Part shown: in pieces, positions 7,613 to 49,275 of the stretch
Layout of the letters: each line of letters opens with the position of its first letter
Position numbering within the stretch: position 1 is the first letter of the stretch
Source: an uncultured bacterium
GTDB taxonomy: Bacteria; Bacteroidota; Bacteroidia; Bacteroidales; Bacteroidaceae
Reading direction: 5' to 3'
Length of the DNA: 53,968 bases
Assembly: GCA_945869305.1 (NCBI GenBank)
Contig: CAMBOH010000005.1
Coordinates: 1 to 53,968 of the forward strand
Notes under the pieces: model-generated
The model's input: only the letters and a program-made list of their open reading frames with translations
What the model was told of the DNA's origin: nothing
Database searches by the model: none
Made by a program: the position numbers and the translations under genes

Positions 7613-7735
7613 CGTCCAACGAAATCGCCAACTTCAACACACGAGAGTACAAGCCGACGAGAGTTCACGTCCTATATGGGCGTGAACTGTTCGTGCTTTT
7701 CTTCGTGTAAGGCGTTTGGCGATGCCTGTTGGACG
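7613..7735 (+). ncRNA. Long multi-stem hairpin in the 5' UTR (candidate cis-regulatory RNA or attC-like site)
   Basis: CGTCCAAC/GTTGGACG, ATCGCCAA/TTGGCGAT, ACACGA/TCGTGT, AAGC..ACGA/TCGT..GCTT and AGTTCACG/CGTGAACT are all collinearly nested. Confidence 0.65.
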
Positions 7736-7772
7736 GAAAAGTGAACCGAGCAGTTCCGCCCATTTTCTTTTT

Positions 7773-10514
7773 ATGAAAAGGTTCTACAAACTTCTTTCAT
7801 TGTTCCTGCTCTCGATAGTAGGAATTACCAATGCGGTTGCGCAGCTTTACAAGAAGGGTACCCGACTCGAAACGACCGAAGATGTCGTAGGCCAGCAGGT
7901 TCTGCTGTATGCCCCGCAACCATTCTGTGGTTTCATGAATGGTACGGAGAATCTGTCGAATGTTACGGAACTGTGCCCATTCGTCAACGAATCGTGGATT
8001 TATGAATTTGAAGCAGTTGGCCGTCAGGTAGACGGCTATGAACTCTACCGCCTGAAGCAGGTAAGTAGCGGCAAGTATGTGAAGGATGCCGACGGACAGG
8101 TCGAAAAGGCCTTCGAACTGACTGCAAAAGCCAGCGAAGCCTTCGAAATGACCGTACTTCGCTATGTGGACATCACAGACACTGGCAAAGCTTGCGGTCG
8201 CAACACCTCCAGCAGCGAAAAGCAGGACCTCAGCAACCCAGGCTTCGTGCTTTGCCGCGGCGAGCTGGCTGCCAAATCCTTTAATGGCAACAACGAGGGG
8301 TACGTCTACATTGGTTCGATGAACTATCCTCTCATCTCTCCCTCTTCCAACAGCAACATGTGGGAAATCTGGTCTGTAACTGCAGATGACACCAAGGGGC
8401 TGGACAAGCTTGCCACCTACTTGGAAAATTACTTCCCAGGCGAAGATCTCTTGTACGACTTCCCCGCAGGCACCAATCCCGGTTTCTATCAAGCCGAAGA
8501 TATAGCTGAGGCTCAGGTATTGGTTAATGAAATCCGCGAAAAGTTTATTGACGCGTATGAAGGTAAAATCACCCTGTCTGACGCTGAAGTCGACGAGCTT
8601 TGCGACCAGCTGAAGGCCGCTTACGAAAAGCTACAAGAGAAAAAAATTAAACCTAATGGCTACTACTTCATCTACAACGATGCTGGCCGTTACCTCTATG
8701 CAGCCAACCAGGGCGAAACAACCTTCCTCTACTCTAAAGCAGCCAATTCTTATGAGATTCCCGAAAACATCTCGTACAAAGACTTAAAGTACATCTGGAA
8801 GGTGACACCCGTCGAAGAAGGCGATAACGCCTACCTCGTGAAGAACATGCTGAAAGGCTTGGTAATCAGCGGACAGGAAGCCAGCTGCTCGGGCACCGAC
8901 AACGGCATGGGCTTCACGCTGGCATCGAGTGGTTCGGTGAAGATTACGGATTATTGTGAAAACTCCGTTCCTTCGTTTATTTTCTATACCACTGCTTATA
9001 CGAAGAACAGCAGGAAGCAGTACCACGCCAAGTTCGACGACAACCCCGTTATGGCTTGGGAATATGCATTATACAGCAACCCCATGCACTTCGTGGCCGT
9101 GACTGAAGAAGAGTTCAACGCTGTCATCGAACAGGCCATGCAGCTGCAGCGCAACGAGAAGTTGGCTGCCCTCTACAGCAAGGTGACGAGCAACGTGATG
9201 GAAGGTACTTCCTATGTATGGAACGGCGAGAAGGATGCCGACTTTACGCATGAGGGTGCCTTGGTATCACCCACTGGCGATGAAGCTACTTCGCACGTGT
9301 TCTCAAGAGCAAAGCAAAGTGATGAAGGTACTTATGAAGCACTGCTTGACGGTGACTTCAGCACATACTTCCACTCTGCTTGGTCTGGCGGTGCGTTCAC
9401 TCCCTCAATGAGCAACTTCCACGATGTTTGCTTCGAACTGGATGAAGCTGTTTCGGGTATCGTGACGGCCAAGATTGCCAAGCGTTTGACCGGTAAAGAC
9501 TATCCTACCAAGTTCGCCGTGTTTGGTACGAACGAGGTTGACAAGGCCAATCCCGACGCAGCCGACTGGACGCTCGAAGATGTTGCCAATATCAGCTGGG
9601 ATACTCCCCTCCAGATTGACGATGAAGAAAGCGAGCGCCAGAAGTATGTAGGTTATGCTTCGTTTAACCTCTCTCAGGAGTACAAGTATGTACGTCTGGC
9701 AGCCATCGCTACAATCTACAATGAGACTAATCCTATGACCAACCGTGGTTACTTCGCTATCAGCGAAATGAACCTCTGGAAGGGTGGTGAGTTCGACGCG
9801 GTCAACTCAACCATCAGTATGGTAAGCCAGCCCACGATGGATGCGCTCAATGCAGCCCTCGCCAAGGCCAAGGATGAAATCGCTGCTGGCACTGCTTCGG
9901 AAGCAACTATTGCCGAACTCGAAGCAGCCTATGCTCAGTTCGTACAAGCTGCCATTAAACAGGAAAAACAGATTGACTGCACGGTAGGTGCGGCCGGCGT
10001 GGGAACACTCATCCTGCCCTTTGACGCCGAACTGCCGCAGGACATGCAGGCTTACCGCTGCACGGGTGTGGACGGCACGAGGATACAGACGGAGGCAGTG
10101 AACGAAATTCCGGCCAATGTGCCGCTGCTCATCACGGCACTGCCGGGTACTTACCAGTTTACAGGTGTGCCCGAAGGTACGGAGAAGAATTATACGGACG
10201 GTGTGCTGACGGGAGTGATGGAGAAAACAGTCATCACCTCGGGCTACGTGATGCAACAGCAGCAGAATGTAGTGGCTTTCTATCCCGTTTCGGCGGAAAA
10301 GCCCATTGCCGTTCCGGCCTACAAGTGCTACCTGAACTATGCGGGTGAGCAGCAGGCCATGCGTTTCGACAATGTGCTGACGGACCTGAAGGGCGTGACT
10401 ACCTCCGAGGGCAACTCATCACTCTACGACCTGCAAGGCCGCCGTACCCAAACGGCTACTGCGCCGGGCGTGTACATTCAGAACAACCGCAAGATTGTGA
10501 AATTCAAAAAATAA
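7773..10514 (+). CDS. Large secreted protein with discoidin-like region, helical repeat and T9SS-like C-terminal tail
   Basis: Signal peptide MKRFYKLLSLFLLSIVGITNAVAQ at internal ATG 7773; C-terminus SLYDLQGRRTQTATAPGVYIQNNRKIVKFKK. Confidence 0.8.
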   Translation: MKRFYKLLSLFLLSIVGITNAVAQLYKKGTRLETTEDVVGQQVLLYAPQPFCGFMNGTENLSNVTELCPFVNESWIYEFEAVGRQVDGYELYRLKQVSSGKYVKDADGQVEKAFELTAKASEAFEMTVLRYVDITDTGKACGRNTSSSEKQDLSNPGFVLCRGELAAKSFNGNNEGYVYIGSMNYPLISPSSNSNMWEIWSVTADDTKGLDKLATYLENYFPGEDLLYDFPAGTNPGFYQAEDIAEAQVLVNEIREKFIDAYEGKITLSDAEVDELCDQLKAAYEKLQEKKIKPNGYYFIYNDAGRYLYAANQGETTFLYSKAANSYEIPENISYKDLKYIWKVTPVEEGDNAYLVKNMLKGLVISGQEASCSGTDNGMGFTLASSGSVKITDYCENSVPSFIFYTTAYTKNSRKQYHAKFDDNPVMAWEYALYSNPMHFVAVTEEEFNAVIEQAMQLQRNEKLAALYSKVTSNVMEGTSYVWNGEKDADFTHEGALVSPTGDEATSHVFSRAKQSDEGTYEALLDGDFSTYFHSAWSGGAFTPSMSNFHDVCFELDEAVSGIVTAKIAKRLTGKDYPTKFAVFGTNEVDKANPDAADWTLEDVANISWDTPLQIDDEESERQKYVGYASFNLSQEYKYVRLAAIATIYNETNPMTNRGYFAISEMNLWKGGEFDAVNSTISMVSQPTMDALNAALAKAKDEIAAGTASEATIAELEAAYAQFVQAAIKQEKQIDCTVGAAGVGTLILPFDAELPQDMQAYRCTGVDGTRIQTEAVNEIPANVPLLITALPGTYQFTGVPEGTEKNYTDGVLTGVMEKTVITSGYVMQQQQNVVAFYPVSAEKPIAVPAYKCYLNYAGEQQAMRFDNVLTDLKGVTTSEGNSSLYDLQGRRTQTATAPGVYIQNNRKIVKFKK

Positions 10515-10522
10515 AATGACTC

Positions 10523-10696
10523 ATGAAGAACCTATATATTAGCCCTGCCGCCGTGGCAGTAGAACTGAAAACGGAAGGAATGATGATGACTTGGTCGATC
10601 GACCCGAACGGAAGTGCCAACCCTGACTTGCCCGTGATGAGCGACCAGATGGAAGAACCCGACTTTGACGAATACGGGAAGAGTTATTGGGAGTAG
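10523..10696 (+). CDS. 57-aa small protein MKNLYISPAAVAVELKTEGMMMTWSIDPNGSANPDLPVMSDQMEEPDFDEYGKSYWE
   Basis: Starts 8 nt after the preceding stop; clean ORF below the 60-aa cutoff of the supplied track; followed by a terminator hairpin. Confidence 0.65.
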   Translation: MKNLYISPAAVAVELKTEGMMMTWSIDPNGSANPDLPVMSDQMEEPDFDEYGKSYWE

Positions 10697-10732
10697 GCGC
10701 GGATTACTTTCAAGCCCAAGATAAACAGATCA

Positions 10733-10770
10733 CCCGGACGGCCCTGAATGATGGGGCTGCCCGGGCTTTT
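10733..10770 (+). terminator. Intrinsic terminator-like hairpin
   Basis: CCCGGacGGCCC tgaatgat GGGGCtgCCCGGG followed by CTTTT. Confidence 0.65.
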
Positions 10771-10870
10771 CAGAAAGGCAGGGCGGCCCACACATTTTCA
10801 CCCCATGATTCAAAGCGAAACGTTGCGTTAACCACTGGAAGAGCAGGCATCCTGCCTGCTTAAATTGCAA

Positions 10871-10895
10871 CGGGCTGGAAGCCCGCGCTCCCAGT
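10871..10895. repeat. Inverted copy of the 25-bp repeat at 7200-7224
   Basis: CGGGCTGGAAGCCCGCGCTCCCAGT, exact reverse complement. Confidence 0.95.
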
Positions 10896-10967
10896 GCACC
10901 ATCGCTTCCTATCCCAGCTTCTGTCATTTGGGGGCTTCGTCTGATTCCATAATCCATTACTTTTGAC

Positions 10968-11135
10968 AAGATAGGCGGCGGCTCGGAAATGCAAAATGAA
11001 AAACTTTCAGCTTTTCTTTTGCATTTCGCTCGCCTTGCACTATCTTTCCATAAGATAGGCGGCGGCTCGGAAATGCAAAATGAAAATCTTTCAGCTTTTC
11101 TTTTGCATTTCGCTCGCCTTGCACTATCTTTGCCA
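10968..11135. repeat. Two tandem 84-bp copies of a palindromic repeat (AAGATAGGCGGCGGCTCGGAAATGCAAAA...TTTTGCATTTCGCTCGCCTTGCACTATCTT)
   Basis: Near-identical tandem units; same family at 23737, 31337 and 53297. Confidence 0.9.
11102..11132 (+). promoter_or_regulatory. Promoter TTTG-N19-TATCTTTG at the edge of the repeat, upstream of the leu leader
   Basis: TTTG 11102-11105, TATCTTTG 11125-11132. Confidence 0.75.
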
Positions 11136-11156
11136 CGCAAAAAGCTAAAACAAAGC

Positions 11157-11231
11157 ATGAAAAGTCTTAATCTCGCCATACGACTGTCGTCGCTATTCAT
11201 TATCCTGCGTGCAAACGGCACGCGGAAGTGA
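11157..11231 (+). CDS. leuL: Leader peptide MKSLNLAIRLSSLFIILRANGTRK (leu operon attenuation)
   Basis: 24 aa with 5 Leu and 3 Ile; ~25 nt after the promoter; followed by mutually exclusive antiterminator/terminator pairings. Confidence 0.75.
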   Translation: MKSLNLAIRLSSLFIILRANGTRK

Positions 11232-11296
11232 ATGGCAACACAGGCTTGTCCCTGAACGGCTGTATGGCCCGCCCGGACTTTTCCCCCTGAACCGCT

Positions 11297-11339
11297 ATGC
11301 CCCACTTCCGCCCGTGTGGAGGTGGGCATTGCTTTTTTT
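11297..11339 (+). terminator. Attenuator terminator upstream of leuA
   Basis: ATGCCC(C)ACTTCC / GGAGGTGGGCAT stem followed by GCTTTTTTT. Confidence 0.8.
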
Positions 11340-11425
11340 CTACCGGCAGCCTGGCTGCCCTTGCGGACTACACTGCTCCCTGATGTCTGCCCGCAAGACC
11401 TTCCAAATGAAAACTATTTGAGAAT

Positions 11426-12925
<1,500 letters not shown>

Positions 12926-36497: not shown

Positions 36498-38978
36498 ATG
36501 AACCGCATACTCCCCCTACTCCTCCTGCCCCTACTCCTGCTGGCAGCGGCCTGCTCCACCACCAGCGCCCTGCCCGACGATGAGCAGCTCTATACCGGCA
36601 TCAAGGACATCACCTATGCTGACGACCCCGTGAAACTGCGCAAGCTAAAGGGGCGCGACTCGACCGGTGTCATCACGGCCGTGGCCAATGCGCTCGAAGC
36701 AGTGAACAATGCGCTCGAAGGCAAGGCCAGCCTGACTACCGACAGCCTGCAACAAGGCCGGCTGACCCTCACCAAGGAACAGAAGAAGGCGCTGAAAGTG
36801 GCCCAGGCCCGCGACGAAGCCGACTTCGCCGTGGCCCGCGAAGAGGTAGAAGCCGTACTGGCCTATCCGCCCAACAACGCCATATTCGGCTCGTCGAGCA
36901 TGAGCTGGCCCTGGCAGATCGGCCTGTGGGTACACAACGGACTGGCCGACAGCAAGGGCGTACTCGGCAAATGGATGTACCGCACCTTTGGCACCGAGCC
37001 CGTGCTCATCAGCCAGGTCAGCCCCGACATGCGCACCAAAGTGGCCACCAACACCCTGCACAATTATGGTTACTTCCACGGCAAGGTGGACTGCAGCATT
37101 CTGCCACAGAAGAACCCGAAGAAGGCCAAGGTGAGCTACCGTGTCAAAGCCGGCCAGCTGTTCCGCCTCGACTCTGTGGCCTACCTCCACTACCCTGCGC
37201 CCATGGACAGCCTGATCCGTGCCCACAGCCGGGAGGGACTGCTGCACCGGGGCGATGCCTTCAGCGTGGTCAACCTGTCAAACGAGCAGACCCGCATCGA
37301 GAGCCTGCTGCGCAACCACGGCTACTACTTCTACAACGCGGGCTACACGACCTTCCGGGCCGACACGCTGCAACGCAAGAACTTCGTACAGCTGCAGGTG
37401 ATTCCCGTGGCCGACCGTCCCGAACGCGCCGACCGCCCCTGGTATATCGGCCGCACCTACATCACCGTACGCCACAAGGACAATGCGCCCCTCACCGGCC
37501 AGCTCGTGAGGCGCAACTACACCTACCAGTTCTCGGGCCGGCAGCTGCCCCTGCGCCCCAACATGTGGCGCCATGCCATCAGCCACCGAAGGGGTGAGCT
37601 CTACAGTCTCGAAGACCAGAAGCTCACACTCGAAAAGCTGGGGGCCATGGGAGTGCTCAGCCAGATGGACGTGGCCTACGTGCCCCGCGACACCTCAGCC
37701 ACCTGCGACACCCTCGACATCATGGTGACCGCCGTGATGGACAAGCTCTACGACTCCACCTTCGAGATGAACGCCACCATGAAGAGCAACCAGCAGATCG
37801 GTCCTGGCCTGTCCTACGAACTGGCCAAGCGCAATGCCTTCAGAGGCGGCGAGAAGGTGTCGTTCAAGATTTTCGGCTCCTACGAATGGCAGACAGGTGC
37901 CGGCAACGCCGGACACAATCCGCTGCTCAACTCCTACGAAATAGGCACCCAGCTGGCCCTGCGCTTCCCCCGGGTCGTCTTTCCGGGCATCAGCCGCCGC
38001 CGTGTGCGCCACTATGCCACCACGCAGTTCACACTCGATGCCGACTGGAAGAACCGCTCCAACTTCTTCAACATGGTCAGCTTCGGCCTCGGCGCAACCT
38101 ATCACTGGTACAAGCGCGAAACCTCGCAACACGAGCTCACGCTGTTCAACCTGGAGTTTGACAAGCTCAACCACACCACCCCGGCGTTTGACTCCATCAT
38201 GCAGGCCAACCCCGCGCTCTACGTCTCCATGCGCGACCAGTTTGTACCCTCGCTCAGCTACACCTTCACCTACCAGAGCCGCACCTGGCGACAGAATCCC
38301 TGGTGGGTGCAGCTCAGCTTCAAGGAGGCGGGCAACCTGACCTCTCTCGGCTATGCCCTGGCCGGCCAGAAGCTCACCCGGCAGGGCAAGAAGCTGTTTG
38401 GCAATCCCTTCGCCCAATACGTCAAGTTCACGGCCGAGGCCCACAAGCTCTTCAAGCTCACGCCGGACACGAAGCTGGCCGCCCGACTGTTTGGCGGTGT
38501 CGTCTACAGCTACGGCAACAGCAACGCCGTGCCCTATAACGACCAGTTCTATGTGGGCGGAGCCAACAGCATCCGGGCCTTCACCGTGCGCTCGGTCGGC
38601 CCCGGCCGCTACAAGCCCGACAAGTCGCGGTATTCCTACATGGACCAGACGGGCGACGTGAAGTTCGAAGCCAACGTCGAACTGCGCACCCGCCTCATGG
38701 GCGACCTTCACGGAGCTGTATTCCTCGATGCGGGCAACGTGTGGACCCTGCGTGCCGACCCTCAGCGACCCGGCTCCCAGCTGACGGCCAGCACGCTCAC
38801 CGATATAGCCGTGGGCACAGGCTTCGGCCTGCGCTACGACATGCAGTTCCTCGTGCTGCGCTTCGATGTGGGCATTGCGCTGCATGCACCCTACGAGACG
38901 TCCAAGTCCGGCTTCTACAACATCGAACGGTTCAAGGACGGCCTTGGCCTGCACTTCGCCATCGGCTACCCCTTCTGA
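36498..38978 (+). CDS. tamL: TamL-like Omp85-family outer membrane lipoprotein
   Basis: Lipobox LLLAAAC; POTRA-like repeats; C-terminal barrel with FYVGGANSIRAFTVRSVGPGRY and a terminal aromatic residue (F). Confidence 0.85.
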   Translation: MNRILPLLLLPLLLLAAACSTTSALPDDEQLYTGIKDITYADDPVKLRKLKGRDSTGVITAVANALEAVNNALEGKASLTTDSLQQGRLTLTKEQKKALKVAQARDEADFAVAREEVEAVLAYPPNNAIFGSSSMSWPWQIGLWVHNGLADSKGVLGKWMYRTFGTEPVLISQVSPDMRTKVATNTLHNYGYFHGKVDCSILPQKNPKKAKVSYRVKAGQLFRLDSVAYLHYPAPMDSLIRAHSREGLLHRGDAFSVVNLSNEQTRIESLLRNHGYYFYNAGYTTFRADTLQRKNFVQLQVIPVADRPERADRPWYIGRTYITVRHKDNAPLTGQLVRRNYTYQFSGRQLPLRPNMWRHAISHRRGELYSLEDQKLTLEKLGAMGVLSQMDVAYVPRDTSATCDTLDIMVTAVMDKLYDSTFEMNATMKSNQQIGPGLSYELAKRNAFRGGEKVSFKIFGSYEWQTGAGNAGHNPLLNSYEIGTQLALRFPRVVFPGISRRRVRHYATTQFTLDADWKNRSNFFNMVSFGLGATYHWYKRETSQHELTLFNLEFDKLNHTTPAFDSIMQANPALYVSMRDQFVPSLSYTFTYQSRTWRQNPWWVQLSFKEAGNLTSLGYALAGQKLTRQGKKLFGNPFAQYVKFTAEAHKLFKLTPDTKLAARLFGGVVYSYGNSNAVPYNDQFYVGGANSIRAFTVRSVGPGRYKPDKSRYSYMDQTGDVKFEANVELRTRLMGDLHGAVFLDAGNVWTLRADPQRPGSQLTASTLTDIAVGTGFGLRYDMQFLVLRFDVGIALHAPYETSKSGFYNIERFKDGLGLHFAIGYPF

Positions 38979-39043
38979 GGTCTGACCCAACCCGAAGACC
39001 GTCCTCCATCCCACAGGCAGACAGCCTGCCAACACGCCGCCCC

Positions 39044-39535
39044 ATGAAAGCCCTGTTCCACACTCCGCTGGGTCCCATCCTGCTCCAGGCCACCCCCTTC
39101 GGATTACAGTCTGCCCGCCTGCTCCAGCCGACCGACCCGCTCCCCGCCCTGTCCGACGATGCCAGCCGCAGCCCGGTCCTGTGTCAGGCCATGGACTGGC
39201 TCTCAGCCTACTTCGGCCACAAGGCACTACCACCCCAGCCCAAGCTGCTGCCGCAGGGCACGGCCTACAGCCGGCACGTGTGGGCTGCTCTCCGCGCTGT
39301 TCCCTACGGCCAAACCGTCACCTACGGCCAGCTGGCCCGCCTCTTGCAGCCCGCCTCGTCGCCGCGTGCCGTTGGCCAGGCCGTTGGCCGCAATCCCCTG
39401 CTGCTGTTCGTTCCCTGCCATCGGGTGACCGCCGTCCAGGGCCTTGGCGGATTCGCCTACGGCGTGGAAGCCAAACGCTGGCTGCTGCGATGGGAGCAGG
39501 CTCTGCTTGGCCCAGAGCAGCTTACGAGCCATTGA
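39044..39535 (+). CDS. ogt: Methylated-DNA--protein-cysteine methyltransferase
   Basis: VGQAVGRNPLLLFVPCHRVTAVQGLGGFAYGVEAKRWLL active-site PCHRV. Confidence 0.92.
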   Translation: MKALFHTPLGPILLQATPFGLQSARLLQPTDPLPALSDDASRSPVLCQAMDWLSAYFGHKALPPQPKLLPQGTAYSRHVWAALRAVPYGQTVTYGQLARLLQPASSPRAVGQAVGRNPLLLFVPCHRVTAVQGLGGFAYGVEAKRWLLRWEQALLGPEQLTSH

Positions 39536-39544
39536 CACCGCAAT

Positions 39545-39775
39545 CGCAAGCGTTCAAGGCAGGCTTGAAGAAGGAGCAACGGGCGCTTGGCACTAAGGGT
39601 AACGCCCCGGGGTAGAACGGGGCATAAAGAAAGGGCAAAAGCATGGGAACAAAACGTATGTGTTCCCATGCTTTTGCCCTTTCAGAGCGCATTTGCGGCG
39701 GCCAACCTACCCAGGGCGTTGCCCTCTGGACTATAGGCTCGTGTCCCCTTCGAAGCGTGCCCTGAACGCCTGCAC
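39545..39775. repeat. Second, degenerate copy of the palindromic GGGCAAAAGCATGG / CGTTCAAGG element
   Basis: TCGCAAGCGTTCAAGGCA ... AAGGGCAAAAGCATGGGAACA ... TGTTCCCATGCTTTTGCCCTTTCAG ... CCCAGGGCGTTGCCCT ... TGCCCTGAACG. Confidence 0.75.
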
Positions 39776-41749
39776 TTATGCCATGATCGAAAAGATTGTC
39801 TCGTCGCCACAGATGTTGCGAATCTTCAGGCGCAGCGGTTGCTTGGGGGCATAAATCCTGGCATTCCAGAAGTCCTTTGTCTTCTGTCCGTTGAGGATGA
39901 CGTAGCCGAGCTTGTCGATCTTTATCTCCGAGTCGCTGTGCCATTCGCCTTCTGCTGAGGTGCAGTCTACGGAGAGGTATTCGATGGTTTCCAGTCCTTC
40001 CTCGCTGACAGCGATTGCCCTGAAGTATTTCTTCTTGTTGGTGTGCATGCTCCTTTCATTGAAGTCACGAATCTTCTGTATCACGCGGTCGCTGACGAAC
40101 TTGGTTATCTCGATGTCGTAACCCTCCTTCTCGACCGTCTGACCACAGAGTTCCTCCGTGGCACGCTCCACCTTGTATTCGGCATAGTCAGCTGCCACCA
40201 CATCGTCGAGCACAGCCTTCAGGTCGCGCAGTTCCACGAAGTCCTTTGTCACCGACTTGTCTTCTTGGATGAACCTGTAGATTTCCTCCTCGCTTGTAAT
40301 GTCCACATAATACACAATGACCTTCTGGATGTCGCCCGGCAGTTCGGGGACGGCCTCGTGCAGTATGCGGTTCATCACCACCTCGTCGAGCAGTTTCGAC
40401 GAGCTGTCCATGAGGTTGGGCACATAGACGGGCACCTTGCCAAGCCGTGAGTCGCTGATGTAACCTTCCCAGAACTCATCCACGCTGTCGTCGTTCTTCA
40501 GACCTGGAATGAGGCGGCAGATGTTCTCCATCGTCTGCTGCGGATTGCGGTAGAGTTGTATGCCGTCCTTCACCTCCTTCATGGTGAATGAGGCTCCAGA
40601 AGCCACGAGCCGGTCGCGTGCTGTCTGTATGCTGTTGATGCCGATGTCGGTGTGGATGAACCTGCGGCCCAGACGGTTGGCCACGGCGGCTGTCACACCG
40701 CTGCCTCCGAAGAAGTCGGCCACAAGCATTCCTTCGTCTGACGAGGCTTTGATGATACGCTCCAAGAGAGCTTCGGGCTTTTGGGTGGCGTAGTCAACGC
40801 GCTCTTCTGCTTGGGAGTTGACAGCATCTATATCTGTCCAAATATCATCTAATGGAATTCCAGGCGCTTCATCAAGATACACTTTAAGTCGCATACCTCC
40901 TTTTTCCGTATAATACAACTTATTATCCTTCCTTAATGCCTCAATTGTTGCTGGAGAAGTTGCTGTACCAAGAAACGCATCTTTAAATCGCTTTTCTACG
41001 CCATTAACAATTTCGGTGTGTGAGAATCTTTGTTTAATGTATTCATCAGAATATGGTATGTATTCTGTATTATAGACATGGTCATCGTTATTCATAACGT
41101 AGCAAAGAATGTTGTCATGATTCTTGCCCATTGCTGTCTTACCCTTGAAACCAGATGATGTTTGGCGTTTCCAAGTAATGTCATTCTTAAAGTTATCCTC
41201 CCCAAAAATCTCATCCATCAGTATCTTGACATAGTGAACGATATGCCAATCTAAATGCACATAGATACTTGCCGTGTCGCTCATCACGCTCTTGATAGCC
41301 ACAAGGTTCTCGTACATCCAGTTGAGATACTTCTCCTTATCCCACACATCGCCGTACATTGTCTCCTCAAAGGCTTTGAGCTCGTCGATGTCAAGCTCAG
41401 TCTCAGCCTGCGAGATAGCCTCCGCCACCTTCGGATTGCGACGCACATACACCTTCTTTGCATAGTCGGCACCGCTGGCAAATGGAGGGTCGATATACAC
41501 GAGGTCCACCTTGATGCCCTGCTCCTTGAGGTAGGCACAGGCCGAGAGACACTCGCCGCGGATAATCATGTTGTCCGTGTCCATGTCGCCCACCTTCTCG
41601 GTTGTCTCCACCTCATAATAAGGCATACCACGGCGCAAGCGCCCGTTGAGGTCTTCCACGCCACGATAGCGGAGCGTGCGGTTGAAATTGTTCAGGAGGG
41701 CTTGTCCCTCAATAGGTTCCGGGAAGAACGGGATATATTTTACTGCCAT
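39776..41749 (-). CDS. mod: Type III restriction-modification DNA methyltransferase (Mod)
   Basis: [16 protein letters not shown] (DPPF motif IV), [28 protein letters not shown] (motif I). Confidence 0.93.
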
Positions 41750-42270
41750 TACTGTATTCTTTTACATGTACCAAATATTGAATCAAAGTTGCGCTTCCAT
41801 GCATGGATGTCAACAACGAAACAATGTTCTGAAGCCACCAATTCACTTGACCAACGAGGTCCTTTTTTGCCGGCAGGAATTTCTTTTTTCAATTGCTTGC
41901 AGAAGTCTTCACATTCCTTGTTGTTGAAATTTGTCAGACAAACATATACAATCTTTTTGTTGCAGCCCTCGCCATACCGATATAAAAAGGTGTCTCTGAA
42001 CTTCAACTTCAAGGTTTCTTGTATCTCACGCACGATTGTTTTGCCGCTTCTGCCCTTTTCCCCCTTTCGAATCTGTTCTAATCGCAACTGCGGATAGTCT
42101 TTAATCTCAATCCACAACTGAAAATTCGGGAATTCAGCAATCACATCTACGGCTTTCATACAGTATGAAAGCCCATGATAATGCGCATTGCTCTTATCAG
42201 GCTCATCAAATTTGTACAATGCTACTGCGTGAGCAAAATCAAACTCGTATCCGTCTGTTACCAACTTCAT
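41749..42270 (-). CDS. 173-aa protein, putative PD-(D/E)XK-type nuclease
   Basis: [19 protein letters not shown], a D...ExK arrangement; 1-bp overlap with mod, 4-bp overlap with ATPase gene. Confidence 0.55.
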
Positions 42271-43277
42271 AGGTCGCTCAATCCTTTTTGAATTTCCGTA
42301 TCCAATAGTCTTGCAAACGTGTCATCTATTGCATTGGGGCTCATCTCGCTCATCACGCTCGTTGAAGCACACTTTACGGCATCATTCTCTTTATACAATG
42401 TATGATAGAGAACATTGTCAGACGGTGTAGTAGCAAGATCAAACTCCTTGAGCAACACGTAATCGTGGGTTGTAATGAATATCTGAACACCCATGCGCTG
42501 CAGTTCAAGCAGAATGTTAACTACGGCTGAAGACAATTTGGGGTTCAGATTGGCTTCCGGTTCGTCCCAAAAGAGTACAGAACCTTTTATCAACGATTCA
42601 TTCTGAATAAGCAAATATAGCAGTCCTAACTTACGGTAGCCTTCTGCAAGGAGAGGAAATTCCAGATTCCCTGTTTTATTCTTCAAATAGAACTTTTCGT
42701 CCTTATTGACAACCTTACCGTCCATGGCTATTTGAAGATGCTTCAATAGCTTCTCACGTTCCTTTGAAAGTCCTCGGGAAACAGGCATAAAGGCCTTATC
42801 CAAAATATCAAGATAGATTTCCTCGTATGGCAAAACCTTGCTACTGAATAGCGAGCGGAAGCCCGGAGCGTTGGCCAGCATATCTTTCACAGGAATAAAT
42901 GTAACTTCCGGATTGGTGTCTTCATGCCAGTTGACTGATTTTTGTTCTGCTTTGCCAAGAGTGGTCAAACTTAAAGTTATGCTACGCTCTTTCTCGTCTT
43001 CCTCTTTTTTCCGATACACGGTGAATTCACCGGAGCTGCGTCCTTTTGTCCGATGAACCAAACGCCCTATGCTGTCAGGCATGAAAACGGCATTCACTTT
43101 TTGGGCAAGAGTACGGTCCAAGTTTTTGCCAATGATTGAACATGCCGAATACACCGCTTTCATAAGATGCGTTTTTCCCGTACCGTTCTCGCCTACGATG
43201 ACATTGACACCCGGAGAGAAACTCATGTCAATATCACTAAAGACAGTAAAACCATGTGCCTTGAATTTCGTAATCAT
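42267..43277 (-). CDS. AAA/ABC-type (SMC/OLD-like) ATPase
   Basis: Walker A GENGTGKT, Walker B VLFWDEPEANLNPK, H-loop ITTHDY. Confidence 0.88.
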   Translation of the reverse strand: MITKFKAHGFTVFSDIDMSFSPGVNVIVGENGTGKTHLMKAVYSACSIIGKNLDRTLAQKVNAVFMPDSIGRLVHRTKGRSSGEFTVYRKKEEDEKERSITLSLTTLGKAEQKSVNWHEDTNPEVTFIPVKDMLANAPGFRSLFSSKVLPYEEIYLDILDKAFMPVSRGLSKEREKLLKHLQIAMDGKVVNKDEKFYLKNKTGNLEFPLLAEGYRKLGLLYLLIQNESLIKGSVLFWDEPEANLNPKLSSAVVNILLELQRMGVQIFITTHDYVLLKEFDLATTPSDNVLYHTLYKENDAVKCASTSVMSEMSPNAIDDTFARLLDTEIQKGLSDL

Positions 43278-46207
43278 ATTGTCTTATTGAAGAATTGGTT
43301 GATGATGTCGTTGGTCTTGTTGATGCGCTCGGTGTCGCTCAGCGAGTCTTCCAGATAGAGATAGTCGAAGCGGCGGTAGCCGAACTTCTCCTCGTTCTGC
43401 TTGAGGAACTGCCCCTCAACGAATGCCCTGCGGTCACGGAAAGCCTCGTCCTGTGCATACAGCGCGCCTTTTGTCTCCACAATGAGCACCTTGTGGATTT
43501 TGTCGTCCTTACGCTTTATGATGAGGAAGTCAGGCGTATAGCGACCGATGAACTTCCACTGGCCGTGGGTGTTCTTCTTGAAGCAGTCGATGCGAAACTC
43601 CGTGAACTGCCCGTCACCATTGTAATACACTTCAAGGTCATGTTTGTGGACGCATTGTTGCGTCAACACTTCACTCAGGAAGACGGACTCAAAGTCGCTA
43701 TCTACATGATAGGGCAGATAATGGTAGGAGCGATCTTTGTTCGGTTCGCTGGTGAACTTCGCACGGAGTTGCTCAGCCATCTCTGTCTGTCCCATTGCTA
43801 TCAGTCCGTCGATGACGGCTTGTGTCTTTTCGTCTACGAGCACCTTGCCGCGGTCCTCCTTCACGATGTTCTCCACCATGTCTTTTTCAGGGATATACTC
43901 ATTCACCTTTGACTTCAGCACCTCTACGGGAGAGAATACAGTGTCGGCATGTATGTGCAGCAACGAGGCAGCGGTGTCGATGAGTTCCTGCTGGACACTG
44001 AGGATGCGCTTCTCATAGAAGGCCTTGCGTATGTTGGCATTGACCTTGGCAACGTTGTAATGGGAGCTGAACCGTGTCGTGCCTTCCGCATCTGTATAGG
44101 TGATGGTCTTGAAGATTTCCTTGAGGGCATCCTGCTGACGGTTGAGCTGCGATATGGAAAGAAAGCCGAAACTCTCCTTGGCAATGCGATAGACCCACTG
44201 GTTGTAGTTCGCTTCTTCGCTGCCATGCTCCCCACCATCGGCTATGGTGTTGGTGCGCTGAAGACCTTGATTGGTGATTTTCCATTCAGTCAGGAAGGGA
44301 TGGTCAATGCGAGCAGATTTTGCAGCATGGTTCAGTTCCTCGCGAGTAGTTTCATCGGTAACTGGATACTCAATAACATCTGTACTCGTCACTCGCATCT
44401 GGTAGAACTCCACCTTGGGGAGGTGCAGGTGGGCAGTGCGGTCGTAGCGATTGAGCAGCACGACATCCTCACGTTTCCTGCCTTGCTGAAACTCCTGGAT
44501 TGAAATGTGCTGCTGCTTCTGCAGTTGCTCGTCAAGATACTTGTAGTTCTCGCTGTTCATGTAGATGAGGGCGGTTTCCTGACTGGCATCCGTCACCTCA
44601 CGCAGACAGCGGCATGATGTCTGTAGCACCATGTTCTTTGGACAATCTTTCTCCTGCGAGAGGATGATGCCCGTCAGACTTTTGCAATCCCAGCCTTCCT
44701 TGCCAATCTGTACGAGCAGAATGATGCGCTTGCGCGACTGCGGACGGTCGAGCATGGCAAACTCCGCCCGGGCGGTCTGAGGTGCCGGGTATTGCTTGTT
44801 GCCTTCATGGAACTTCAACACCGCCTCTGCCGGGTCGATGCCCTCTTCGGCGCATATCCGGTTGACAAGCGGATAGATGACGGTTTCGAGCGTCTCTATG
44901 GTTCCGCAATAGATGCCCAACTTGGCGCAGGTGCCGTTGGCATACACGGTGTTTTTATAAAGATGCAGAAACTCCCGCACGCCCTGCTCCACTATTTCCT
45001 CACGATTGTTGCTGCCGCTCTTCACAACCTTCGGCACTTTGAGGAAGTTGCCTATGCCTTCTGCCAATGGGTAATAGGTAGTGATGTTCGACATCTCGGT
45101 GGTAGCCACTGTCTGTCCCTCGGTCACCGCTATCTTGTCCTTCTTGTCTAAATAAGGTGTGCCGGAGAAGCCCAACACGGTTGTGATGGAGCCTTGGGTT
45201 GTCCAGCGGTTGACCACTGTACGCAATTTTGCCTCGTCATCTGTAGCAGAGGATGCCACATGATGCACTTCGTCAAGCAGAATGGAGAGGTGTGGCAATT
45301 TGCCAATCTTGTTACGCAGCTCATTGGCAACTCGATCCTTCTCGTCAGCAGATTCGTCATGGAAGTCAAACAATCCATCCGTACCTTTGTCTATGCGGTC
45401 GAGTATCACTTTCTCGGCATTTGTTACAGCCACAAGACCGAAGAGTTCGGCAAGAGGCTCGTGTATGGCAATCTTCTGTACGTTCGGGTTCTTGGTGCGG
45501 TTTGACTTGTTGGCACTCTTATTCTCGTCCAACATCTCAAACTTCAGTTCGCGCTTTAACTGCGAAGCTGCGGGTTCAGGTATCACCCACGAGGGGTCGA
45601 AATCTTGAATGGTGCGAAGGCTTGGGATGACAGAGGTCTTCAAACCGGATGGAACCATGACCATGAAGTTATGAGCAAAGGCAGGATTGTTAGGTTCCTG
45701 CTGTGCAAAATACAGGTCGAGGTAGATGAATGCTGCCATAAGGTAGGTCTTGCCCGCACCCATCGGAAGGCTGAACACATAGTCTGGGTAGTTCACTCCA
45801 TAGAAGATACGATTGAAGATGCTGTCAAAATCTATGTGCTGAGGCTCCTCCATCACAGCCTTGCGCAAAGCATCGGCAATTGGTTTCCCTTTCTCGTCCT
45901 TCAGCGAAGCAAACTCATAGAGTGCCACAGCGGCAGGAGATTCTTTGAATACTCTGCGTGCTACGGCTGACAATTGCATATTATCTATGTCATCGTGGGA
46001 GAGAGTATTGAACTTGCCCTGCTTGAAGAGTTCGGCAAGCGGCAGGTTCCGGCATTCTATTTTCAGATACAGGTAGGTCTTGATCGCATCCACCTGCGCG
46101 TCACGCATCTGGCCCCGCTGCTCTATGTAAGCAATGAGGGGCAAGGCGGTACAATCCGGGCGTGAAAGCCATTGATCGCGCTTACTGGTTATGATAGGGT
46201 AAAACAT
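43274..46207 (-). CDS. res: Type III restriction endonuclease subunit (Res), SF2 helicase
   Basis: PMGAGKTYL, LDEVHH, GFSGTPY, QIGKEGWDCKSL, C-terminal nuclease-like LIVETKG. Confidence 0.93.
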   Translation of the reverse strand: MFYPIITSKRDQWLSRPDCTALPLIAYIEQRGQMRDAQVDAIKTYLYLKIECRNLPLAELFKQGKFNTLSHDDIDNMQLSAVARRVFKESPAAVALYEFASLKDEKGKPIADALRKAVMEEPQHIDFDSIFNRIFYGVNYPDYVFSLPMGAGKTYLMAAFIYLDLYFAQQEPNNPAFAHNFMVMVPSGLKTSVIPSLRTIQDFDPSWVIPEPAASQLKRELKFEMLDENKSANKSNRTKNPNVQKIAIHEPLAELFGLVAVTNAEKVILDRIDKGTDGLFDFHDESADEKDRVANELRNKIGKLPHLSILLDEVHHVASSATDDEAKLRTVVNRWTTQGSITTVLGFSGTPYLDKKDKIAVTEGQTVATTEMSNITTYYPLAEGIGNFLKVPKVVKSGSNNREEIVEQGVREFLHLYKNTVYANGTCAKLGIYCGTIETLETVIYPLVNRICAEEGIDPAEAVLKFHEGNKQYPAPQTARAEFAMLDRPQSRKRIILLVQIGKEGWDCKSLTGIILSQEKDCPKNMVLQTSCRCLREVTDASQETALIYMNSENYKYLDEQLQKQQHISIQEFQQGRKREDVVLLNRYDRTAHLHLPKVEFYQMRVTSTDVIEYPVTDETTREELNHAAKSARIDHPFLTEWKITNQGLQRTNTIADGGEHGSEEANYNQWVYRIAKESFGFLSISQLNRQQDALKEIFKTITYTDAEGTTRFSSHYNVAKVNANIRKAFYEKRILSVQQELIDTAASLLHIHADTVFSPVEVLKSKVNEYIPEKDMVENIVKEDRGKVLVDEKTQAVIDGLIAMGQTEMAEQLRAKFTSEPNKDRSYHYLPYHVDSDFESVFLSEVLTQQCVHKHDLEVYYNGDGQFTEFRIDCFKKNTHGQWKFIGRYTPDFLIIKRKDDKIHKVLIVETKGALYAQDEAFRDRRAFVEGQFLKQNEEKFGYRRFDYLYLEDSLSDTERINKTNDIINQFFNKTI

Positions 46208-46329
46208 AGGGTCGTTTGCTTATTCTTTTCGCCTGCGAAGGTATGTTGAATATCTCACAGAAAAGTTCAAACCACGTAGAATATCCATAAATCGGGGAGA
46301 TGGGCGAGCTTGCACTTGTCAACCCCCAT

Positions 46330-47151
46330 TCAAGCTTCACGCACCTCCAAATGGGAAGTGTCGTACATCACTCTGGCATGGTTGCGCCTGATGATGTCGC
46401 ACTGCAGGCATTCACCCGTATGCTTGTCGATGACCTGACGCTCCACGATGCCGTTGCGATAGACCACCCCGCGTTCCCGGGAAAAATGTTCGTCGCGCGC
46501 ATGAATGTGATAGGCACAGGGTAGCGTTTGCATGGCCCGCAACTCCCCACGCAGGTATTCGCCGTCGGTATGGGTCAGGAGCTGGTAGGTGTTCGCGCTG
46601 TCGTTGCGGAAGCGGTAGTCTAAATAGTTATAGACGATGCTCGTGCCGGTGCCGAAGGGTATCTGCCTGTGGTAGTCCGGAAAGAGGTCGAGGCCGTCGT
46701 GGTGGTGGTGCTCCACGATGGTCAGGTCGGAATGGAGCACCATCCAATGGATGAGGTTGGTGAACTGGCACAGTCCTCCGCCTATGCCGCTTGAGGGCAT
46801 CCCGTGGGCTATGGTCAATCCTTCCTGATAGCCATGACGGGCATCATCCCTGCCCACCAGGTGCCAAAAGGAGAAGGTTTCGCCCGGCCGTATCAGGATG
46901 CCGTTTACCTTCGGGGCGGCAAGCGACAGGTTCACGGCCTTGTTCTCCTGCAGATGCAGCTCGGTGTTGCCCAGCTTGCGGCGGATGAGCGAATTGTGCC
47001 TGTATACCAACACGGGCAACGGCTCAGCCGACTTGTCCTTTGCGAACTTGACCGGCTTGAACTTGTCCCTGACTTTTCTGGCCAGGATGCACTTCTCCAC
47101 AGACAGGCGATATGTCCACGGTGCTATCTCACAAAACAGTTTTCTCTTCAT
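46330..47151 (-). CDS. VanW-family protein
   Basis: VNGILIRPGETFSFWHLVG, GGGLCQFTNLIHWMVLHSDLTIVEHHHH; start at internal Met MKRKLF preferred. Confidence 0.88.
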   Translation of the reverse strand: MKRKLFCEIAPWTYRLSVEKCILARKVRDKFKPVKFAKDKSAEPLPVLVYRHNSLIRRKLGNTELHLQENKAVNLSLAAPKVNGILIRPGETFSFWHLVGRDDARHGYQEGLTIAHGMPSSGIGGGLCQFTNLIHWMVLHSDLTIVEHHHHDGLDLFPDYHRQIPFGTGTSIVYNYLDYRFRNDSANTYQLLTHTDGEYLRGELRAMQTLPCAYHIHARDEHFSRERGVVYRNGIVERQVIDKHTGECLQCDIIRRNHARVMYDTSHLEVREA

Positions 47152-47335
47152 GTGTATGTTTATTTGCTCCTTCTCTTCTACCATACGATCTGACATCCCA
47201 ACAGCCCGAACCGGCTTCCTGACCCATGATCCGACACTGGATGCACCGCCAGGTTACACCTACGGCTGAGAGAGCAGACTATATGCTTGGCCTCCCCAGC
47301 CATGTGCTTCCCGGCCAAAGGAGTAGTACTGCCAT

Positions 47336-47400
47336 GCCGACAGGAGATATCTTCTATGCCGACAGGAGATATCTTCTACGCCCATAGAAGATATCTTCTG
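47336..47400. repeat. Three ~22-bp tandem units ending in GATATCTTCT
   Basis: GCCGACAGGAGATATCTTCTA x2, then GCCCATAGAAGATATCTTCTG containing perfect palindrome AGAAGATATCTTCT. Confidence 0.9.
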
Positions 47401-47577
47401 CTCCAGCGTCCAATAACTGCGGATTAAAAGAGACCGGCTGCTTTCCCGGTGTCGGGTGGTTCAAGGCTTTGGGTGGACTACCTCGGGCCTTGTTTATAAG
47501 GCTGGTTGTCCCGGTTGGCCAATCATGAAGGCATCTCTCGTCCGACCACTTTTCTTCCAGCCGTAAAACAACAAAAT

Positions 47578-47693
47578 GGTTGAAGTGGAAAGCGTTGCGC
47601 TGACAGTTTCAGAACCCTGCTGTCTGACTGAACGAATCGCCCTCCAAACAGTGAGGCAGTAAAAACTGTGGCTTGTCGCTTTCGACTTCAACC
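47578..47693. repeat. 116-bp hairpin-forming inverted repeat
   Basis: GGTTGAAGTGGAAAGCG (47578-47594) / CGCTTTCGACTTCAACC (47677-47693), one mismatch; inner GACAGTTT / AAAACTGT. Confidence 0.75.
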
Positions 47694-47739
47694 ATGAACG
47701 TATGACACACCCTACACGGTGTGGCAGAATAGCGTGGGG

Positions 47740-49275
47740 TTAGTCCTGAATCAGGTTGCGGCCTGTCATTTCCTTCGGCTGCTCCAGTCCCATGATGTGC
47801 AGGATGGAGGGAGCTACGTCGGCCAGCACACCATCGGCTACCTTGGCCTGCTTGTTCTGCGTGACGTAGATGAAGGGCACAGGATTGAGCGAGTGGGCCG
47901 TGTTGGGGGTGCCGTCGGGATTGATGGCATTGTCGGCGTTGCCGTGGTCAGCGATGATGATGGTTTCGTAGCCGGTGGCGTTGGCTGCCGTCACTACCTC
48001 ATTCACACACTGGTCGACAGCCTTGACGGCCTTTTCGATGGCTTCGTAGACACCGGTGTGGCCTACCATGTCGCCGTTGGCGAAGTTGACAACGATGAAG
48101 TCGTACTTGTCCTCACGGATGGCTGCCACGAGTTTGTCCTTCACTTCGTAGGCCGACATTTCGGGCTGCAGGTCGTAGGTTGCCACCTTGGGCGATGCCA
48201 CGAGGATGCGGTCTTCGGCTTCGTAGGGCGTTTCGCGACCACCGTTGAAGAAGAAAGTGACGTGGGCGTACTTCTCGGTTTCGGCGGTATGGAGCTGCTT
48301 GAGTCCCTTGGCAGCCAGATATTCGCCGAGCGTGTTCTCCACGTTCTCCTTGGGGAAGAGGATGTGTACGCCGGTAAACGAAGCGTCGTAGGGGGTCATG
48401 CAGTAGTATTGCAGGCCGGGGATGGTGTGCATGCCTTCTTCGGGCATGTCCTGCTGGGTGAGCACGACAGTAAGCTCCTTGGCGCGGTCGTTGCGGTAGT
48501 TGAAGAAGATGACCACATCGCCTTCCTGGATGCGTCCGTCGACATTGGCATTGACCAGCGGCTCCATGAACTCATCCGTGTTCTTGTGGTCTTCGCTGTC
48601 TGTGTCGTAGCAGCTCTGTACGCCTTCGACCATGTCGGTGACAGCGCGTCCCTTGCCCTCAACCAGCTGGTCGTAGGCTATCTTCACGCGGTTCCAGCGC
48701 TTGTCGCGGTCCATGGCATAGAAGCGACCGATGATGCTGGCTATGTGGGCGCCGTTGGCCTCGCAGACCTTCTGGAGGTCGGCAATGAAGCCCTTGCCGC
48801 TCTTGGGGTCGGTGTCGCGGCCGTCCATGAAGCAGTGAACGTAGGTGCGTTCGGCCACGCCATACTCCTTGGCTATCTCAACCAGCTTGAAGAGGTGGTC
48901 GAGCGAGCTGTGTACACCGCCGGTCGAGGTAAGGCCCATGAGATGCAGGCCCTTGCCGTTCTTGCGGGCATATTCGTAGGCCGAAACGATTTCGGGGTTC
49001 TTGGAGATGGAGCCGTCGGCACAGGCGCGGTTGATCTTCACCAAGTCCTGATATACGATACGTCCGGCACCGATATTGAGGTGACCTACCTCGGAGTTAC
49101 CCATCTGTCCGTCGGGGAGTCCGACGTTCTCGCCTGAGGCGAGGAGCTGAGAATGCGGATAAGTGGCATCCAGATGGTCCATGAAGGGGGTCGGGGTTTC
49201 ATAGATGACATCGCCGTGGTTGTGCTTGCCGATGCCCCAACCATCGAGAATCATAAGAAGAGCTTTCTTTGCCAT
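47740..49275 (-). CDS. gpmI: 2,3-bisphosphoglycerate-independent phosphoglycerate mutase
   Basis: [42 protein letters not shown]. Confidence 0.96.

Follow-up and report, generated by a model that had tools for sequence, protein, structure and literature searches.

Published cases of one defence module lodged in the operon of another concern Hma, BREX and Type I restriction–modification (R-M) systems. Two such modules from Type I operons, TgvAB (PMC11411939) and an island with DarTG2 (PMC12255303), have been shown to act on phage, and pairs composed of an OLD-type ATP-binding cassette (ABC) ATPase and a PD-(D/E)XK restriction endonuclease (REase) have been proposed to serve as backup effectors inside BREX (PMC12839542). 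The guilt-by-embedding screen for Hma-embedded candidates (HEC) is described in PMC12988326 and cited in PMC12255303 and PMC11411939. Here, we analyze a 53,968-nt stretch of DNA from an uncultured bacterium of the Bacteroidaceae (assembly GCA_945869305.1, contig CAMBOH010000005.1), referred to as a whole as the window, in which two genes encoding an ABC-type ATPase and a PD-(D/E)XK-like protein lie between the res and mod genes of a Type III-like R-M operon. The two proteins correspond to HEC-02A and HEC-02B of the candidate defence system HEC-02, whose source is reportedly a guilt-by-embedding preprint by Payne et al. (2024). The situation is like that of TgvAB and DarTG2 in that a two-gene defence module is lodged in an R-M operon, but those proteins are unrelated to HEC-02 and their carrier is of Type I. 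In the literature searched, we found no report of such a module embedded in a Type III system; as far as our searches reach, the Type III-like carrier and its cargo slot are new, while HEC-02 itself was already a listed candidate.

HEC-02 is inserted into a Type III-like res–mod operon

The four genes succeed one another on the minus strand in the order res, HEC-02A, HEC-02B and mod (Table 1), with a 4-bp ATGA overlap at the res/ATPase and ATPase/173-aa protein junctions and a 1-bp overlap between the last two genes. All four open reading frames (ORFs), their coordinates and order and the three overlaps had been put forward in an earlier reading of the bare sequence (hereafter, the original prediction), and an ORF check confirmed them; the motifs that it had picked out are present as described. 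A search for internal promoters in the operon gave no signal above chance.

Res is a superfamily 2 (SF2) helicase with a Walker A motif (MGAGKT), a DEVH motif and a C-terminal PD...ETK nuclease motif, in which D893, E911 and K913 (PDFLII...IVETKG stretch) are invariant in a six-sequence alignment. Its Pfam matches are ResIII (9.7e-6, over the cut-off) and RE_endonuc (1e-3, below the cut-off); since the latter falls short and Res has no match in PADLOC, nor in the PDB by a solved-structure sequence search, it represents a divergent branch, hence the term Type III-like. Mod contains a DPPF motif, matches N6_N4_Mtase (Pfam, 3.9e-41) as well as MTase_II (7.6e-55) and MTase_III (1.1e-43) in PADLOC, and is related to the Mod subunit of EcoP15I (4zcf_A, 2.6e-16). 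The likeness to Type III R-M enzymes lies in this EcoP15I-related Mod and in the association, within Res, of an SF2 helicase with a C-terminal PD-(D/E)XK motif; the carrier would be a Type III-like res–mod system. Relatives of Res that are 42–52% identical also stand before mod. This Res was detected in 9 of the 393 genomes sampled from the order and in 6 of the 91 from the family (the genome of the window included), and was absent from the four other same-genus genomes searched.

The idea that a second module has been embedded in the R-M operon, already present in the original prediction, is supported by the spacing of res and mod in relatives, by base composition and by the phylogeny of the ATPase. 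Res stands before mod in all 17 carrier-family loci whose two ends were read, so that the mod–res order taken as the baseline in the original prediction does not apply to this family. The two genes are only 2–15 bp apart in ten relatives (L131, L182, L183, L154, L197, L198 and L200–L203, with the proviso that L131 and L182 are near-copies and that res has a frame break in L154). As to composition, the G+C content at third codon positions (GC3) is 0.45 for the pair versus 0.65 for Res/Mod (Fisher p 1e-14) and 0.75–0.85 for most flanking chromosomal genes. No stretch of Res or Mod of the pair's length has a GC3 below 0.61; the case of HEC-02B alone is less clear, 6% of the windows of equal length in Res/Mod being equally low. 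Because GC3 steps down in this way, we see a nesting of a foreign res–mod operon in the chromosome and of a still more foreign pair in this operon. Finally, a tree of 87 ATPases, in which the context must have changed at least 14 times, places the window ATPase in a six-member Bacteroidota clade (SH-aLRT, the Shimodaira–Hasegawa-like approximate likelihood ratio test, 99); insofar as their contigs reveal, none of the five other members is part of a restriction operon. No inverted repeats bordering the pair were found.

In the carrier family, cargo recurrently occupies a slot between res and mod. It is filled in seven of the loci: by HEC-02 in the window only, among the carriers read, and otherwise by genes for a 23S-IVP-like protein (L151), a PDDEXK_3 protein (L152), a Bro-N protein (L153), a KilA-N protein matching PDC-S22 (L199) or an IS200 transposase (L204), or by a 68-aa ORF (L132). 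The slot gene of L152 (13629–14012) is of the GxxExxY/PDDEXK_3 type.

The carrier family is also a meeting place for second defence systems on the other side of mod. The Hachiman genes hamA–hamB stand directly 3' of mod in L131 (8874–14534) and L182 (6814–12332, assigned by likeness to L131), both of which are phage-borne copies of res–mod, and Septu ptuA–ptuB occupy the same position in a same-family genome (L197, 5378–7288). Elsewhere, mod is followed by the gene of a SIR2 protein (L198), of a TIR protein (L183) or, with a 1-bp overlap, of a DUF3644 protein matching PDC-S19 (L202). An 884-aa AAA_23 protein is encoded directly 3' of mod in L151 (2086–4737).

Table 1. Features of the operon, with positions in the window
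Feature	Position	Strand	Length
res: Type III-like restriction subunit	43274..46207	-	977 aa
HEC-02A: ABC-type ATPase (OLD/RecF/PtuA-like)	42267..43277	-	336 aa
HEC-02B: PD-(D/E)XK-like protein	41749..42270	-	173 aa
mod: Type III-like DNA methyltransferase	39776..41749	-	657 aa
Perfect inverted repeat with 9-nt loop, 3' of mod	39629..39683	.	23 bp

Predicted properties of the two proteins

Both proteins match the PADLOC models of HEC-02 over nearly their full length, and in the same order, A then B: residues 1–333 of the ATPase match PDLC04213 (7.4e-116) and residues 1–166 of the 173-aa protein match PDLC04229 (1.8e-47). The defence module postulated in the original prediction is thus a member of a family listed as a candidate defence system, and not a new module. 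The difference from HEC-02 as named is the carrier, a Type III-like res–mod operon instead of Hma; since the relatives found in BREX and in other settings likewise have no Hma carrier, we treat embedding in Hma as the naming context and not as a defining feature.

Judging from its motifs, HEC-02A is a complete ABC-type enzyme, with a Walker A motif (GENGTGKT), a signature (AEGxRK), a Walker B motif (FWDEPEANLNP) and an H-loop (TTHD); Walker A, AEGxRK, WDEPE-N-NP of Walker B and TH of the H-loop are invariant or nearly so in 34–36 homologues. The best solved match of its AlphaFold2 (AF2) model (predicted local distance difference test score, pLDDT, 91.2) in Foldseek is PtuA of Septu (8eea, E 2e-15), SMC and Rad50 heads ranking next, and weak PADLOC matches link it to AriA and GajA. 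The protein is devoid of a long coiled coil: of the ABC/SMC-like label initially given to it, the ABC part holds, whereas an SMC with long coiled coils has to give way to an ABC/OLD/PtuA-like enzyme.

HEC-02B displays four residues that are kept in 68 of 68 homologues, D42, E55, K57 and K90, D22 being kept in 62. In its AF2 model (pLDDT 91.2), D42 precedes strand 43–46 and E55-x-K57 lies within strand 50–57, so that the invariant D and ExK are on consecutive strands, like those of the PD-(D/E)XK superfamily. The Foldseek matches of the model include R.BspD6I2, Can2, Holliday junction resolvases (Hjc), the Hachiman complex (HamA) and McrBC. A solved-structure sequence search returned chance matches only, Pfam and PADLOC gave no HNH or TOPRIM match, and none of 50,697 phage records contained a phage-borne HEC-02B. 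On the basis of the invariant residues and the model, which agree with the PD-(D/E)XK-like assignment of the original prediction, HEC-02B likely has a nuclease fold.

Septu, PARIS and Gabija had been invoked as analogues of the pair, and the analogy holds insofar as PtuA is the nearest solved fold; by partner type, however, the pair is a member of none of them. Septu (PtuA–PtuB) is likewise a two-gene ATPase plus nuclease system, but PtuB is an HNH protein where HEC-02B is PD-(D/E)XK-like, and HEC-02A forms a separate ATPase lineage. An OLD-type ABC ATPase is shared with PARIS (AriA–AriB), where the partner AriB is a TOPRIM protein, and with Gabija (GajA–GajB), where GajA is an ATPase–TOPRIM fusion and GajB a helicase; the 336-aa HEC-02A lacks TOPRIM and the operon lacks GajB. 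The OLD-ABC/PD-(D/E)XK REase pairs of BREX have the same architecture and the same proposed backup role as the pair of the window (PMC12839542). They differ in their carrier; the likeness is one of architecture and proposed role.

The pair travels as a module

Searching species genomes with an alignment of the ATPase yielded 431 candidate stretches encoding a relative, of which the best 80 were kept. HEC-02B adjoins HEC-02A in 95 of the 99 loci that extend at least 500 nt downstream, mostly outside any restriction system or defence operon. Because of this adjacency, and because the genes of the window overlap within the contig, their order is no assembly accident. The A-to-B spacing is −4 in 47 of 81 loci, as in the window, and the distances between HEC-02A proteins correlate with those between HEC-02B proteins (Mantel r 0.61 versus 0.22 for the best of 999 permutations). 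The pair occurs in Bacteroidota, Pseudomonadota, Planctomycetota, Chloroflexota, Thermodesulfobacteriota, Acidobacteriota and Bacillota as well as in archaea, and is patchily distributed, 24 of the 396 genomes sampled from the phylum having it. The two genes travel together as a module and are co-inherited.

BREX is a recurrent context: several loci, L003, L006, L045 and L073 among them, have the pair between brxC and pglX, and in L121 its neighbours are PglX and BrxHI, all junctions being 4-bp overlaps. Among the 64 genome loci that extend for 3 kb or more on a side, 10 contain at least two BREX genes. Gaps of at most 20 bp on both sides of the pair were observed in 10 of 81 loci, all of them in or beside BREX genes or in the window operon; one of these loci, L134, was called BREX solely because its upstream neighbour has the size of brxC and because the tree places it in the BREX clade. 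This suggests, with the reservation that the loci are few and related and the gene calls crude, that tight coupling on both sides is a feature of BREX-linked and Type III-like operons only. A rule placing the pair directly upstream of a methyltransferase gene fits the brxC–pair–pglX loci and the window but fails in the PglX–pair–BrxHI loci, where the methyltransferase is upstream.

By sequence appearance, the ordinary neighbours of the pair are riboflavin, aspartokinase, leuD and sugar-nucleotide genes. In L102, L108 and L109 (~9900–11570), from metagenome-assembled genomes of Methylococcaceae, HEC-02 is flanked by riboflavin genes whose sequences look like ribD and ribE, in a housekeeping operon; the L109 locus ends after the ATPase gene.

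Possible role of HEC-02 in the operon

We favor, with moderate confidence, the view that the pair is a second-line ATPase–nuclease defence module, which a Type III-like system has captured and coupled to itself in translation. A mobile HEC-02 module would have been inserted between res and mod and would now be translated along with both. Through ATP-driven dimerisation, HEC-02A would sense DNA or an infection signal, or be switched by either, and would then license HEC-02B to cut nucleic acid, as thought for PtuA/PtuB in Septu. Operon membership would cause the second effector to be expressed in step with the R-M enzyme, and phages escaping or inhibiting restriction would still meet the HEC-02B nuclease. 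We propose this mechanism by analogy with PtuAB and with the OLD-ABC/REase backup effectors of BREX (PMC12839542). The structure of the operon, the insertion, the identity of the module, the conservation of its catalytic residues and the co-inheritance of its genes are computational results, and the nuclease activity, ATPase gating, anti-phage action and backup role of HEC-02 are inferred; backup upon inhibition of the R-M system had also been suggested in the original prediction. A broader picture, which we put forward tentatively, is that the res–mod family is a docking station with a rotating cargo at the res/mod junction and 3' of mod (HEC-02, PDC-S22, Septu, Hachiman, SIR2, TIR, DUF3644), HEC-02 being a general backup nuclease repeatedly recruited with translational coupling into the methylation-based BREX and Type III systems and possibly firing when restriction is blocked.

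Several points weigh against the capture of a second-line defence module. The window is the sole Type III-like instance found, and the coupling to Type III rests on this single case. About 16–22% of the pairs in the reference set are near BREX genes; since the other loci inspected sit among ordinary genes, R-M is dispensable for the pair, which may have another function. The fold matches of HEC-02B, including those behind its PD-(D/E)XK-like assignment, are statistically weak (probability up to 0.99, but best E 4.6e-3 and TM 0.40). Lastly, we found in the open literature neither a paper on HEC-02 by name nor a HEC-02 experiment.

That the pair stands alone in most loci, and that the res/mod junction takes unrelated inserts in six other relatives, would also fit an independent anti-phage module that uses the operon promoter and has settled in an insertion hot spot, with no functional link to Res or Mod. 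We regard this as a serious but rather improbable alternative: the restriction of two-sided coupling to operons of the BREX-linked and Type III-like kinds is unexpected under mere hitchhiking, though it concerns ten loci, some of them non-independent. We consider it unlikely that the two genes form a selfish or addiction module, in which a toxic nuclease held by the ATPase would spread by operon insertion with defence as a side effect. Such a nature could explain why the pair is scattered patchily across many phyla and archaea, sometimes among housekeeping genes, but no small antitoxin accompanies it, every aligned copy retains D, E and K, and repeated recruitment by BREX points to defence.

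The tight coupling with res and mod raises the question of whether HEC-02A and HEC-02B are accessory subunits of the Type III enzyme, serving the Res complex by DNA-end processing or clearing, for instance; some m4C Type III operons also have an extra ATPase gene on their 5' side, albeit a different one (PMC8259958). Such a role is very unlikely, given that relatives with a 46–56% identical Mod do without the pair, that its composition is foreign to the operon and that none of its closest kin adjoins R-M genes. Least probable of all is a Rad50–Mre11-like factor devoted to repair or recombination instead of immunity: the HEC-02A head does resemble Rad50 and SMC heads, and HEC-02B has weak Hjc-like fold matches, but the lack of a long coiled coil, the patchiness of the pair and its recurrence inside BREX speak against such a role.

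Under the capture of a second-line module, the Type III-like carrier joins the restriction systems known to swallow a second defence module. Relatives of the operon that are about half identical and whose slot is empty or differently filled constitute a natural experiment, making the question of why defence systems nest inside R-M operons testable with one operon family. HEC-02 is widespread, and its conserved catalytic residues are now pinpointed for mutation.

Genomic surroundings

The inverted repeat located 3' of mod is possibly a bidirectional terminator closing the operon. In two genomes of the same genus, the flanks of the operon (window positions 36498–49275), a BamA-like gene and gpmI, are split between contigs, which precluded a simple comparison with a chromosomal site empty of the whole operon in congeners. 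The VanW gene adjoining res is missing from the same two genomes, indicating a variable region. Elsewhere in the window, a 932-aa ORF (7716–10514) with a GC3 of 0.62, versus ~0.8 for its neighbours, is possibly a second acquired gene.

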